A stretch of 49,922 nt of DNA from Bacteroidota bacterium (GTDB lineage Bacteria > Bacteroidota > Bacteroidia > JABDFU01): the NCBI GenBank assembly GCA_013286805.1, contig JABDEY010000008.1, forward strand, positions 1 through 49,922, read 5' to 3'. Each line of letters begins with the position of its first letter. The stretch's first letter is position 1. The notes beneath the pieces were generated by a model. That model worked only from the letters and a program-made list of their open reading frames with translations. It ran no database searches and was not told the origin of the DNA. The translations under genes and the position numbers were made by a program. Shown one piece after another: positions 1 to 8,661 of this stretch.

Positions 1-418
1 GGTTCGCCAATGTGCCTTGCAACTCAACGAGAGCTTGCTTTTCCTTAATCAATTTCAAAAAACCCTTTGCCTCAAGTTGTGGTAATCCACGGTATTTACG
101 AATTTCAGCGACGGCAGTTTTCAGAAACTGTATCGTACTGACACCCGGAATTTCGACCGGATATTGAAAGGCGAGAAACAAACCCTCACGGGCTCTGTCT
201 TCCGGTGACATATCCAGAAAGTCCTTTCCATTAAACCTCACCTCACCCTCTGTCACCACATAATCCTCTCTTCCGGCAAGTACGGCCGACAAGGTGCTCT
301 TGCCCGAACCATTGGGTCCCATAATTGCATGTACTTCCCCCGGCCCAACCTCGAGGTTAATCCCCTTCAGGATTTCCTTCCCTTCTATCCCGGCTTTTAA
401 ATTTTTTATCGACAACAT
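1..418 (-). CDS. sufC: SufC, Fe-S cluster assembly ATPase (partial, C-terminus outside window)
   Basis: SufC is the ABC-type ATPase of the SufBCD scaffold, which builds Fe-S clusters in the cytoplasm. The ORF track misses it because it runs off the window. Reading the minus strand from the ATG at 418-416 gives 139 residues, beginning MLSIKNLKAG. Walker A GPNGSGKS lies near residues 34-41 and the Q-loop FQYPVEIPG near 84-92, both typical of SufC. The family is about 250 residues, so the signature motif and Walker B lie beyond position 1. It is the third gene after the A-type carrier and sufB. The 92-nt gap to sufB, unusually wide for this operon, holds a 9-bp-arm hairpin. Family assignment is secure. 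Confidence 0.95.
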   Translation of the reverse strand, partial: MLSIKNLKAGIEGKEILKGINLEVGPGEVHAIMGPNGSGKSTLSAVLAGREDYVVTEGEVRFNGKDFLDMSPEDRAREGLFLAFQYPVEIPGVSTIQFLKTAVAEIRKYRGLPQLEAKGFLKLIKEKQALVELQGTLAN

Positions 419-510: not shown

Positions 511-1968
511 TTATCCAACGCTTCCTTCTAAGGAAACAGCCAGCAATTTCTGCGCTTCCACGGCAAACTCCATCGGCAATTGGTTTAGTACCTCCTTACA
601 ATATCCATTCACGATCAGCCCTATAGCCTTCTCCGTATCTATCCCACGTTGATTGCAGTAAAAAATCTGATCCTCTCCGATTTTTGAAGTTGTCGCCTCG
701 TGTTCCACGATTGCAGTCTTATCCCTGATTTCCATGTAAGGAAAAGTATGGGCTCCGCATTTATCGCCCATCAGCAAAGAATCACATTGGGAAAAATTAC
801 GAGCTCCGCTTGCACCTTTCATTATGCGAACCAATCCCCGATAACTGTTATTACTCCTGCCTGCTGAAATGCCTTTCGAGATAATGGTACTTTTCGTATT
901 CTTTCCAATATGTATCATTTTCGTCCCGGTATCCGCCTGCTGCATATTGTTTGTAAGGGCAACGGAATAAAATTCCCCAACCGAATTATTTCCCTTTAAA
1001 ATAACCGAAGGATACTTCCAGGTAATCGCGGAACCCGTTTCCACCTGTGTCCAGGAAATCTTTGAATCGTCTCCCAGACAAATTCCACGTTTAGTCACAA
1101 AATTATAAATGCCCCCTTTACCCTCTTTGTCTCCTGGATACCAGTTCTGGACCGTACTGTATTTGACCTCAGCAGACGTATGGGCCACAATTTCCACAAT
1201 TGCTGCATGCAGCTGATTCTCGTCCCGCTGAGGAGCAGTGCAGCCTTCCAGGTAACTCACAAAAGATCCCTCGTCTGCTACAATGAGGGTGCGTTCAAAC
1301 TGACCGGTACCGATCGCATTGATTCTGAAATAAGTTGACAACTCCATCGGACAACGAACACCCTTTGGAATATAGCAAAATGAGCCATCGCTGAAAACAG
1401 CCGAATTAAGTGCAGCATAAAAATTGTCTGTATAGGGAACCACTGAACCCATATAGCGTTTCACCAGTTCGGGATGCTCCTGAACCGCGTCACTGAAAGA
1501 GCAAAAGATAATTCCCTTTTCAGCAAGCGTTTCTTTAAAAGTAGTTTTAACAGACACGCTGTCAATCACAGCGTCCACAGCGATCCTGCTTTCCACACCG
1601 CTCAGTCGTTTTTGCTCCTCCAGTGATATTCCCAGCTTTTCAAATGTCTTTAGTAATTCAGGATCCACTTCATCCAGACTCTTGAGCTCCTTCTTCTGCT
1701 TAGGGGCAGCGTAATAAATAATATTCTGAAAATCAATCACCGGATACGTCAAGTGAGGCCAATATCTGGGCTCTTCCATCTTAAGCCAATGCCTGTATGC
1801 CTTCAATCGGAATTCTAGCATCCATTCCGGCTCCTTCTTTTTCTTCGAGATAAAACGGACAATGTCTTCACTAAGTCCCTTAGGCGCAGCATCCATCTCA
1901 ATATCGCTGCTCCAGCCATATTTATACTCACCTGCAACCTGTTCCTCTAAAACTTCGTTATTTTTCAT
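511..1968 (-). CDS. sufB: SufB, Fe-S cluster scaffold subunit
   Basis: SufB is the scaffold subunit of the SufBC2D complex on which Fe-S clusters are assembled from SufS/SufE-derived sulfur. The 485-residue product is full length for the family (E. coli SufB is 495). Visible hallmarks are the [18 protein letters not shown] segment, [20 protein letters not shown], the conserved [21 protein letters not shown] block carrying the family cysteine, and the C-terminal [20 protein letters not shown] region. The stop of the upstream A-type carrier gene is 3 nt before the start, so the two are almost certainly co-transcribed. sufD and sufS are not visible and would be expected beyond sufC, outside the window. 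Nothing looks truncated or frameshifted. Confidence 0.97.
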
Positions 1969-1971
1969 GGA

Positions 1972-2298
1972 CTAAACTGAAAAAGACTCCCCGCAGCCGC
2001 ATGTTCTTGATGCATTCGGATTAACAAATACAAACCCCTTACCATTCAATCCTCCTGAATAATCAAGTTCAGTTCCAATCAGATAGAGGAAACTTTTTTT
2101 GTCGACTACCACTTTTACCCCTTTATCTTCAAAAACCTGATCGCCTTCTTTCATTAAGGTATCAAACTCCAGTTTATAGGAAAGGCCGGAACAGCCTCCG
2201 CCTTCAACGCCTACGCGAATAAACGCCCCTTCTGGTTTTTTCTCCTCCTTCATGAGAAGAACAACTCTTTCCTTTGCTTGTTCAGTTACAGTTATCAT
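1972..2298 (-). CDS. A-type Fe-S carrier (IscA/SufA/HesB family)
   Basis: This 108-residue protein is an A-type carrier that receives nascent Fe-S clusters and passes them to apo-proteins. The three cluster-binding cysteines are all present: C36 in GGGCSG, and C100 and C102 in the C-terminal TCGCGESF. Length matches the family (about 105-120 residues). It is the first gene of the suf operon, 3 nt before sufB, and by context would be called SufA, although the sequence alone does not separate SufA, IscA and ErpA. A 68-nt spacer upstream of the start ends at a perfect TAnnTTTG box, and a 19-bp palindrome lies where transcription should begin. Confidence 0.93.
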   Translation of the reverse strand: MITVTEQAKERVVLLMKEEKKPEGAFIRVGVEGGGCSGLSYKLEFDTLMKEGDQVFEDKGVKVVVDKKSFLYLIGTELDYSGGLNGKGFVFVNPNASRTCGCGESFSV

Positions 2299-2340
2299 TT
2301 TATAACATATTAAAAATCAACTACTTCTATTAAAAACCTT

Positions 2341-2359
2341 ATTTAGAACAATTCTAAAT
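2341..2359. promoter_or_regulatory. 19-bp palindrome, candidate operator of the suf operon
   Basis: ATTTAGAA-CAA-TTCTAAAT is a perfect inverted repeat with 8-bp arms and a 3-bp centre. It begins 7 bp downstream (minus strand) of the suf -7 box, so it covers or directly follows the predicted transcription start. A 19-bp AT-rich palindrome here is the size and placement expected of a Fur/PerR-like or Rrf2-like repressor site. Which regulator binds cannot be told from the sequence. Confidence 0.6.
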
Positions 2360-2365
2360 ACTGAG

Positions 2366-2373
2366 CAAATTTA
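2366..2373 (-). promoter_or_regulatory. -7 box of the suf operon promoter
   Basis: On the minus strand the sequence is TAAATTTG, a perfect match to the Bacteroidota -7 consensus TAnnTTTG. It lies 67 nt upstream of the A-type carrier start. I see no clear -33 TTTG element. Confidence 0.65.
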
Positions 2374-2421
2374 CTCAATAACCCATAAATTCACAAACAA
2401 TTCAAAGGAAAAAACTTTCTC

Positions 2422-5900: not shown

Positions 5901-7547
5901 ATGAAAAATTGCTACCCGTTAACCGCTTTTCTCTTTGGAATTTTATATAGTTGCTTTTCTTTTTCACAGGTCAATCTCGATAGCGGCTTAGTGGGTTGTT
6001 ATCCGTTTTCAGGAAATGCGAACGACCTTAGCGGAAACAAACATAATGGAATTGTCAATGGTGCAACTTTAACTACGGACAGATTTGGAAATGCCAATAG
6101 TGCCTATTTATTCAACGGGACAAGCGCTTCAATAGCTATCAATAATTTTGATAGTCTAAGTTCAGCAAATGAATTAAGCATAAGCCTTTGGGCTCAGGCA
6201 ACAGTTTCAACCTCCAATTCAGCATTTATGCTCTCCACAGATGCAATTGCTGACCGTCTTGTTGGCAGTGTTGAGTATGAAGGTAATATCTATTTTGACT
6301 ACGGTGATATTTCCGCAAATGGAAGGTCAGTTATTAGCCAGAACTATGATACAAACTGGCACCATTATGTATTTGTTGTTAGTCAATCCAAAAACAGTAA
6401 GCAGGTATTCGAAGATGGCTTACCTGTAATAAATACTTCTTACGGTTCCTCTTTGGTAAACAGAAACAGAACTCTATTAATTGGCGCAGGTACGGATGCA
6501 AATGGAGGAAATATCAGGTTCAATGGTGCTATAGATGATATTCGGATTTTTAACAGATCTGTTTCGGGTGCAGAAGTAAATCAGCTTTATTCGTCCAAAA
6601 CAGCTGTTTGTAGCCCTTCAAACCCGGTGGACAGTGGTCTGGTATTATGCTTGCCGTTGAAAGGTAATGCAACAGATTTTAGCGGATTTCACCATAACGG
6701 ACAGATAAATGGAGCGACTTTAACTACGGACAGATTTGGAAATGCCAATAGCGCCTATTTATTTAACGGGACAAACGCTTTTATTGCAATCAATAACTTT
6801 GATAGTCTGAGTTCAACAAATGAATTGAGCATTTGTTTCTGGGCCCAGGCTGATCTTAATACTTCCAACTCCGTATTTATGCTCTCAACGGATGCAATTG
6901 CTGACCGTCTTGTTGGTAGTGTTGAGTATGAGGGCAATATCTATTTTGACTATGGAGATATTTCCGCAAATGGAAGGTCAGTAGTCAGTCAAAATTATGA
7001 TACAAATTGGCACCATTACGTATTTGCTGTCAGTCAATCAAAAAACAGTAAGCAGGTTTTTGAAGATGGTTTACAGGTAATTAATACAACTTATGGTTCC
7101 TCTTTAGTGAACAGGAACAGAACTCTATTGATTGGCGCAGGTACAGATGCAAATGGAGGAAATATAAGATTCAACGGATCAATTGCAGAATTTCAGATAT
7201 TTAATTATGCGCTTTCATCGTCACAGGTTACAGGTGATTATTCAGCATTTTCATGTGGTAAAACAACAGGCATTAGTAATATCAGCCTGCAAAATAACGC
7301 TGTAACTGTTTTTCCAAACCCTGCATCCGGTGAGGTATCCATTAATCTGGGAATACCAACTATTGAACCCACCATTTTAAAGTTTGTGAATGTTCTGGGA
7401 CAGATTATGTATTCTGAAATTGTTCCTCAAGGGAGCAAACTCATCAGAGCAGACCTCACAGGAAAAATGAACTCCGGTCTTTATTCCTTAATACTGCAAG
7501 GGAATTCAGGTGACCTAAAAGCACAAAAAGTAATCTTCAATAAGTAA
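5901..7547 (+). CDS. Secreted protein with two LamG domains and a type-A T9SS sorting domain
   Basis: The 548-residue protein starts with a signal peptide (MKNCYPLTAFLFGILYSCFSFSQ). It has two LamG/concanavalin A-like jelly-roll domains, roughly residues 26-240 and 243-455, and a C-terminal T9SS type-A sorting domain of about 80 residues (VFPNPASGEVSINL ... GLYSLILQG). LamG domains of this kind usually bind glycans or act as surface adhesion modules, and the C-terminal domain should direct export through the T9SS and surface attachment or release. The two domains are nearly identical in long stretches such as DRFGNANSAYLFNGT, offset by 217 residues (651 bp), so the duplication is recent or kept alike by gene conversion. 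Its 3' end overlaps the convergent mqnC by 11 bp. Confidence 0.88.
   Translation: MKNCYPLTAFLFGILYSCFSFSQVNLDSGLVGCYPFSGNANDLSGNKHNGIVNGATLTTDRFGNANSAYLFNGTSASIAINNFDSLSSANELSISLWAQATVSTSNSAFMLSTDAIADRLVGSVEYEGNIYFDYGDISANGRSVISQNYDTNWHHYVFVVSQSKNSKQVFEDGLPVINTSYGSSLVNRNRTLLIGAGTDANGGNIRFNGAIDDIRIFNRSVSGAEVNQLYSSKTAVCSPSNPVDSGLVLCLPLKGNATDFSGFHHNGQINGATLTTDRFGNANSAYLFNGTNAFIAINNFDSLSSTNELSICFWAQADLNTSNSVFMLSTDAIADRLVGSVEYEGNIYFDYGDISANGRSVVSQNYDTNWHHYVFAVSQSKNSKQVFEDGLQVINTTYGSSLVNRNRTLLIGAGTDANGGNIRFNGSIAEFQIFNYALSSSQVTGDYSAFSCGKTTGISNISLQNNAVTVFPNPASGEVSINLGIPTIEPTILKFVNVLGQIMYSEIVPQGSKLIRADLTGKMNSGLYSLILQGNSGDLKAQKVIFNK
5976..7250 (+). repeat. 651-bp direct duplication (two LamG domain copies)
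   Basis: Copy 1 spans about 5976-6590 and copy 2 about 6627-7250. Shared DNA such as ttaactacggacagattt recurs at 6069 and 6720, an offset of 651 bp or exactly 217 codons, so the frame is kept. Boundaries are approximate because the match fades at the edges. Confidence 0.85.
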
Positions 7548-8661
7548 TCACCTGCTGCTCTGTATTAACAGGCAATTCTCTGTATTCATACTGTTGATTT
7601 CTTAACTGAGGAACGAATCCTGCTTCCCGTATGGCATCCTGAATCCCCTGTGAGGTAAACCGGTGCGGTGCTCCCGCAGCAGAAACAACATTCTCCTCTA
7701 TCATGATGGAGCCAAAATCATTCGCTCCGGCATGCAGACAAAGTTTCCCCACCTCTTTGCCAACTGTAAGCCAGCTGGCCTGTATGTTTATTACATTAGG
7801 TAACATAATCCTGCTCATGGCTATCATGCGTATATATTCATCCCCGCTTACATTATTTTTAATTCCTTTGTGACGTCTCAGCAAGGTTCCATCATCCTGG
7901 AAGGGCCAGGGGATAAAGGCCAGAAAGCCTTTCGCGCCGGCAGGTTTTTCATTCTGAACCTCTCTGAGCCAAACCAGGTGTTCAAAGCGTTCTTCCGTTG
8001 TTTCAATATGTCCGAACATCATTGTCGCCGACGTAGTCAAATTCAACTGATGTGCCGCCCTCATTACATCCAGCCATTCTCTGCCTCCGCATTTTCCTTT
8101 TGATATCAGCCTGCGCACGCGATCATTCAGGATCTCTGCCCCCGCGCCTGGAAGAGAGTCCAAACCGGCGTCTTTCAGTGCCTTTAATACAGAGGTATGG
8201 GTGCTCTTTTCCAGCTTTGTAATATGCGCTATCTCCGGAGGCCCCAGGGAATGAAGTTTTAAATTGGGATAGAGTGATTTTAATTCCTTAAACAGGTCAA
8301 CATAAAATTTCAGACCTAATTCAGGATGATGCCCGCCCTGCAATAACAATTGCTCTCCCCCTAATCTGAAAGTCTCTTCAATCTTAACTTTGTAAGTTTC
8401 AATATCCGTTATATAAGCATCAGCATGTCCTGGTATTCTGTAAAAATTACAGAATTTGCAATTTGCAATACAAACATTGGTCGTATTGACATTCCTGTCT
8501 ATGATCCAGGTCACCTTATTGTCCGGCTTCTTGAGTTTCCGGAGCTCATTTCCAACAAACATTAACTCAGCAGTTCCGGCATTTTTAAACAGAAATACAC
8601 CCTCATCCGCAGAAAGCTCTTCGAATTTCAAGGCACGTACTAAAAGTGAATCCACGACCAT
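7537..8661 (-). CDS. mqnC: MqnC, cyclic dehypoxanthine futalosine synthase (radical SAM)
   Basis: MqnC is a radical-SAM enzyme of the futalosine route to menaquinone, cyclising dehypoxanthine futalosine. The cluster motif CxxxCxxC is CIANCKFC, about residue 65, inside RNVNTTNVCIANCKFCNFYR. Other family features are LLLQGGHHPELGL, the LHSLGPPEI segment, LPGAGAEILNDRVRRLIS and FIPWPFQDDGT. The 374-residue length is normal. The close paralogue MqnE also contains radical-SAM cysteines, but the QGG and PGAGAEIL blocks fit MqnC better. No other mqn genes are in this window, which is common because the pathway is often scattered. The start ATG at 8661 has a near-consensus -7 box upstream (TAAATTTC, 8684-8691). 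The 3' end overlaps the LamG gene tail. Confidence 0.85.
   Translation of the reverse strand: MVVDSLLVRALKFEELSADEGVFLFKNAGTAELMFVGNELRKLKKPDNKVTWIIDRNVNTTNVCIANCKFCNFYRIPGHADAYITDIETYKVKIEETFRLGGEQLLLQGGHHPELGLKFYVDLFKELKSLYPNLKLHSLGPPEIAHITKLEKSTHTSVLKALKDAGLDSLPGAGAEILNDRVRRLISKGKCGGREWLDVMRAAHQLNLTTSATMMFGHIETTEERFEHLVWLREVQNEKPAGAKGFLAFIPWPFQDDGTLLRRHKGIKNNVSGDEYIRMIAMSRIMLPNVINIQASWLTVGKEVGKLCLHAGANDFGSIMIEENVVSAAGAPHRFTSQGIQDAIREAGFVPQLRNQQYEYRELPVNTEQQVITY

Follow-up and report, generated by a model that had tools for sequence, protein, structure and literature searches.

The suf operon and the palindrome in its promoter

The window, a stretch of 49,922 nucleotides of DNA from a Bacteroidota bacterium (contig JABDEY010000008.1), carries at one end a suf operon on the minus strand, the last visible gene of which is truncated by the contig end. 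The features of the operon and its promoter are listed below.

1..418, minus strand: sufC, gene start only (contig end), from reading of the sequence
511..1968, minus strand: sufB, 485 aa (PF01458, 2.3e-77)
1972..2298, minus strand: sufA, A-type Fe-S carrier, 108 aa, first gene of the operon (PF01521, 2.5e-19)
2340..2360, no strand assigned: very probable Fur box (operator), perfect 9-3-9 inverted repeat TATTTAGAA-CAA-TTCTAAATA (sequence, conservation in 35/54 regions, published Fur box)
2366..2373, minus strand: -7 element TAAATTTG (TAnnTTTG) of the suf promoter (sequence; exact TAnnTTTG in nearly all relatives)
2374..2393, minus strand: promoter spacer, in which a second inverted repeat, TACC-N8-GGTA, found there in most congeners, is degenerate (3 mismatches; promoter alignment)
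2394..2397, minus strand: probable -33 element TTTG, 20 nt from the -7 element (sequence and inference)

These elements form a Bacteroidota -33/-7 promoter directed at sufA, sufB and the truncated sufC. A preliminary description of this DNA had placed a palindrome shortly after a TAnnTTTG box that lies ahead of the three genes; the box was located as TAAATTTG, and on the minus strand the palindrome begins 6-7 nt past it. Application of promoter rules gives a predicted transcription start at about 2359, within the first arm of the palindrome. The location is thus that of a promoter, where a bound repressor could block transcription, and this placement is kept in relatives.

The palindrome is contained in the 158-bp gap between sufA and a divergent gene for an FkbM-type methyltransferase (plus strand, ATG at 2457). 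The arms of ATTTAGAA-CAA-TTCTAAAT, at 2341-2359, pair with zero mismatches, as first described, but the true length is 21 bp rather than 19, one extra pair stretching the palindrome to 2340-2360 (TATTTAGAACAATTCTAAATA). On the plus strand, TATCTTTG at 2422-2429 is the likely -7 box of the divergent methyltransferase gene; the putative Fur box is ∼60 bp upstream of this element, so the FkbM neighbour could be affected too.

Perfect inverted repeats with arms of at least 9 bp and spacers of 0-8 nt occur three times in the window, compared with a shuffle mean of 1.55 (0.2 for perfect repeats with a spacer of 3). Taken alone, the palindrome is weak evidence for an operator. Given that a single palindrome per window is close to chance, the case rests on cross-genome comparison. 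Inverted repeats were also observed elsewhere. A perfect, G+C-rich repeat with 10-bp arms and a 1-nt spacer (CAAACAGCCTCAGGCTGTTTG) lies at 478-498, between sufB and sufC, and could act as a processing or attenuation hairpin within the suf operon. A further perfect 9-3-9 repeat (ATTCTGTAAAAATTACAGAAT) is found at 8435-8455, near the start of a minus-strand ORF (7537-8661) that by eye resembles an MqnC/MqnE-type radical SAM enzyme.

Within the 2.3 Mb of the window's genome, the TTTAGAA-N3-TTCTAAA core is single-copy at 0 mismatches. At up to 2 mismatches, 24 sites were counted in the same 2.3 Mb against 35 for the control, which is no excess; these weak matches lie mostly within genes or near unrelated genes and were rejected as additional boxes. 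The genome is 56% complete; the regulon sites described below come from relatives.

Conservation of the box and the identity of its regulator

To place the palindrome in a comparative context, sufA was sought in 60 genomes and found in 54, that of the window included, and the upstream 300 bp were examined. The sequence ATTTAGAnnnnnTCTAAAT was present within 2 mismatches in 35 of the 54 sufA upstream regions of the class, compared with 0.6% of shuffles; 17 of these sites were exact, 16 had one mismatch (33 at ≤1) and 2 had two. In nearly all relatives the box follows an exact TAnnTTTG element at a gap of 1-18 nt (mode 6), and different families share both the sequence of its arms and its position in the promoter. 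All five same-genus genomes with sufA, including that of the window, have the palindrome upstream of sufA. Two genomes (G006 and G030) have no box at sufA; here, the box precedes sufB instead. As judged by these sequence comparisons, conservation across relatives is decisive and puts the palindrome far beyond chance.

Nor is the distribution of the sites random: genomes have more strict sites than the reversed control, and these sites lie at iron genes. In relatives, the strict motif is also found upstream of FeoB, FeoAB, a TonB-dependent receptor, heme oxygenase and VIT1, and the HmuY, NqrA, IscU and SdhC genes are likewise preceded by it. The companion genes of the motif in relatives are therefore predicted to be an iron regulon.

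The window's box is an AT-rich inverted repeat with the TTAGAAT-n-ATTCTAA-like core of Bacteroidota Fur boxes. In Riemerella anatipestifer, promoters carrying the predicted Fur box ATTTAGAATTATTCTAAAT were shifted by purified Fur in electrophoretic mobility shift assays (PMC5609570). That box is the same 19-bp inverted repeat; the minus strand of the window reads ATTTAGAATTGTTCTAAAT, such that the central bases alone differ, and both boxes lie within 100 bp of a start codon. By contrast, the published R. anatipestifer boxes are at TonB receptors, hmuR and other genes, and suf, where the window's box lies, is missing from the Fur-box list (PMC5609570). In that organism sufA, sufB and sufD are induced by iron limitation in the wild type and fur mutant alike (PMC5609570, Tables 3 and 5), and since this iron response persists without fur, Fur may not be the sole iron input.

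The genome of the window encodes a canonical Fur of 170 aa (G000:C85; PF01475, E 1.8e-26), the best solved relative of which is Vibrio cholerae Fur. In 18 box-bearing genomes of at least 90% completeness, the single Fur-family protein is a canonical Fur. On the comparative evidence, the palindrome is very probably a Fur box through which the suf operon is controlled. Its first interpretation as the suf operator is supported by conservation at sufA and by the sites at iron genes. The regulator had been left as an unknown protein of Fur, PerR or Rrf2 type; Fur was rightly among these candidates, but "unknown" was too cautious, given that the published R. anatipestifer box is the same and that Rrf2 and DtxR proteins are absent from some genomes that keep the box.

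Several other readings of the palindrome were weighed. PerR, Zur and Fur boxes have a common 7-1-7 architecture, and some relatives encode two or three Fur-family proteins. A Fur paralogue (PerR or Zur) as the main user of the box, tying suf to peroxide or zinc, is nevertheless highly unlikely, given 18 near-complete suf-box genomes with no second Fur-family protein and companion genes that are iron and heme genes. An operator for an Rrf2-family Fe-S sensor of the IscR/SufR/RirA type would agree with the control of suf and isc by Rrf2 regulators in other bacteria and with the presence of Rrf2 proteins in 31 of the 60 relatives. However, Rrf2 above the Pfam cut-off is absent from 18 of the 35 suf-box genomes (one being the incomplete genome of the window), and several box-bearing complete assemblies have no Rrf2 gene. 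The box is, moreover, also found at feoB, heme oxygenase and TonB receptor genes and equals the published Fur box, all of which renders an Rrf2 operator extremely unlikely.

A DtxR/MntR-family iron repressor is very unlikely, even though DtxR-family genes above the cut-off are found in 50 of the 60 relatives and their co-occurrence with the box resembles that of Fur (p ∼0.03-0.09). Four of the 35 suf-box genomes have no DtxR above the cut-off (G023, G037, G048 and the incomplete genome of the window), one of which, G037, has nine strict sites, and it is Fur, not DtxR, that binds the box sequence in R. anatipestifer (PMC5609570). Absence from box-keeping genomes rules out both Rrf2 and DtxR proteins as obligatory regulators. 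As for a chance palindrome, or an RNA hairpin or terminator in the 5' leader, a 9-bp hairpin is possible in the leader and one palindrome per window is near expectation; but the leader folds no better than shuffles (z -0.32), it has no Rfam match, no terminator was found in it, and the sequence of the arms is kept class-wide at one promoter position across families. Such an origin is exceedingly improbable.

The distribution of Fur itself was compared with that of the box. Two genomes (G039 and G049) have neither Fur nor box, and the co-occurrence of Fur and box gave a Fisher p = 0.056; given the few genomes without Fur, co-loss of the two is no more than suggestive. In G026, the recognition helix of Fur (L110) has diverged (SLATVYNS versus SRATLYNT, SLATVYNSMDHL versus SRATLYNTIELL), and zero strict boxes were found in this genome, a single case in which a change in Fur-box specificity is possible. 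An exact suf Fur box is present in G033 (99% complete; L034, L253), yet no Fur-family protein was detected there. None of 44 fur genes inspected has a Fur box ahead of it, and autoregulation of fur through this box was rejected on that count.

The following minimal model is proposed for control by Fur. When iron is plentiful, Fe-loaded Fur would occupy the box, which spans roughly +1 to +20 relative to the predicted start of the sufA-sufB-sufC transcript, and block the binding or escape of RNA polymerase; when iron is scarce, Fur would release the box and the SUF Fe-S assembly machinery would be produced. The sequence, position and conservation of the box, its identity with a supported Fur box, the fur gene in the genome and the recurrence of the motif at iron genes in relatives are observed; binding by this Fur, its iron-dependence, repression rather than activation and the exact transcription start are predicted. 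The suf operon of Escherichia coli is under Fur and IscR, and a Fur box in its promoter mediates repression that iron starvation relieves. A Fur box in the promoter, very probable in the window, is common to the two operons. In the window, by contrast, the box sequence is Bacteroidota-specific (TTAGAATnATTCTAA core) and the promoter is of the -33/-7 type; the lineage needs no Rrf2 partner, and relatives seem to use a NarL-type three-cysteine second regulator.

A second suf site and a three-cysteine regulator in relatives

When the promoters were aligned, the spacer separating the -33 and -7 elements was seen to hold another inverted repeat, TACC-N8-GGTA, whose right arm enters the -7 element (GGTAnnTTTG). 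The repeat is exact in 18 of 54 sufA regions and present with no more than one mismatch in 21 of 54. A spacer of 8 was observed in 19 cases, compared with 0-1 for each other spacer tested from 4 to 13. In every case with an assignable downstream gene, the composite of Fur box and TACC-N8-GGTA was at sufA. The window has only a degenerate form (3 mismatches), whereas the repeat is intact in four congeners; in the species of the window this site has apparently been lost and the Fur box alone retained. TACC-N8-GGTA was ruled out as a general promoter feature, its frequency together with a -7 box being near background genome-wide. NarL sites have a 7-2-7 geometry, and by this rule of general knowledge the 16-bp TACC...GGTA element fits.

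In the window's genus, one further strict Fur box precedes a gene for a NarL/LuxR-type response regulator. Orthologues of this regulator are present in 32 of the 60 relatives (L239 and L262-L341 are regulator genes), and none was seen in the window's genome, which is 56% complete. Fluviicola chungangensis is among the named carriers of the regulator (locus L302). A Fur box with up to 2 mismatches lies near the start of 23 of 30 orthologues checked, and in an independent set of named genomes it was found at 53 of 80 regulator genes, against 0.7 expected. Three cysteines are invariant in 30/30 and 80/80 orthologues (110/110), at the end of beta-5, just past alpha-5 and in the linker ahead of the DNA-binding domain. 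The receiver and GerE helix-turn-helix domains were recognized in 6/6 proteins (PF00072 and PF00196), and the phospho-acceptor Asp is kept in 28/30. The AF2 model has a pLDDT of 90.9, with low confidence in the linker bearing the third cysteine, and its top structural matches are LiaR (5hev) and VraR (4gvp); the modelled fold is that of an ordinary LiaR/VraR/NarL-type protein. The receiver and LuxR/GerE helix-turn-helix are common to these response regulators, from which the protein differs in its three invariant cysteines, the Fur box on its gene and a candidate site at suf. The cysteines constitute a conserved candidate ligand set, such as an Fe-S sensor working like IscR would have. No close named family was found, NCBIfam matches being far under cut-offs, and literature searches turned up no NarL/LuxR protein known to control suf in Bacteroidota. 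In a phylum-wide search the regulator was found in 2 of 198 genomes; most of the listed members of this sample were of high quality and belonged to the same class.

The link between regulator and site was assessed across 237 genomes of the class. The composite suf promoter is present in 41, and 39 of these have the regulator; of the two others, one genome is 68% complete and one has the site on a short contig with a second sufA fragment. Among the 196 genomes without the composite, 59 have the regulator (Fisher p ∼2e-15). Counted by family, the regulator occurs in 16/17 versus 14/50 (p ∼2e-6), and in families f11, f27, f33 and f65 the regulator-less members are also without the composite. In the promoters of the regulator family itself, 9 exact copies of TACC-N8-GGTA were found against 0.4 expected, essentially with spacer 8 alone, sometimes in tandem and sometimes where a Fur box is absent. 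A minority of these promoters have the site, which is therefore not an invariable component of them. Tandem pairs were observed at L288, upstream of the regulator gene, and at L380 (G050). In G049 (L259, L056), Fur was undetected, the suf promoter has no Fur box and the regulator gene has an exact TACC-N8-GGTA.

The three-cysteine regulator is the candidate protein for binding TACC-N8-GGTA, and a cluster may be held by its cysteines. The combined data suggest that this protein is an undescribed iron- or Fe-S-responsive partner of Fur. It is an evenly balanced proposition that suf in many less-studied Bacteroidia is a two-input switch, with Fur at +1 and the NarL-type regulator at TACC-N8-GGTA, its cysteines perhaps forming an Fe-S or metal sensor, and that the window represents a Fur-only form. 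In such a switch, a Fur box would usually control the regulator gene, joined in some lineages by TACC-N8-GGTA sites of its own. Either an Fe-S cluster or some other metal may be bound by the cysteines, which would give an IscR/SufR-like role to a response-regulator fold.

Implications for Fe-S cluster assembly in Bacteroidia

As a Fur box, the element in the window is itself a familiar and ordinary kind of site; more surprising are the regulator, apparently undescribed, and its candidate site beside the Fur box in relatives. Control of suf through this box would tie Fe-S cluster assembly directly to Fur across a large, poorly studied bacterial class, and the operator sequence is readily searchable in other genomes. 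If the two-input switch is true, the three-cysteine NarL-type partner would represent new Fe-S or redox sensing, with a likely target (suf) and a likely DNA site in hand, and could explain the iron response of suf without fur in a member of the Flavobacteriia.
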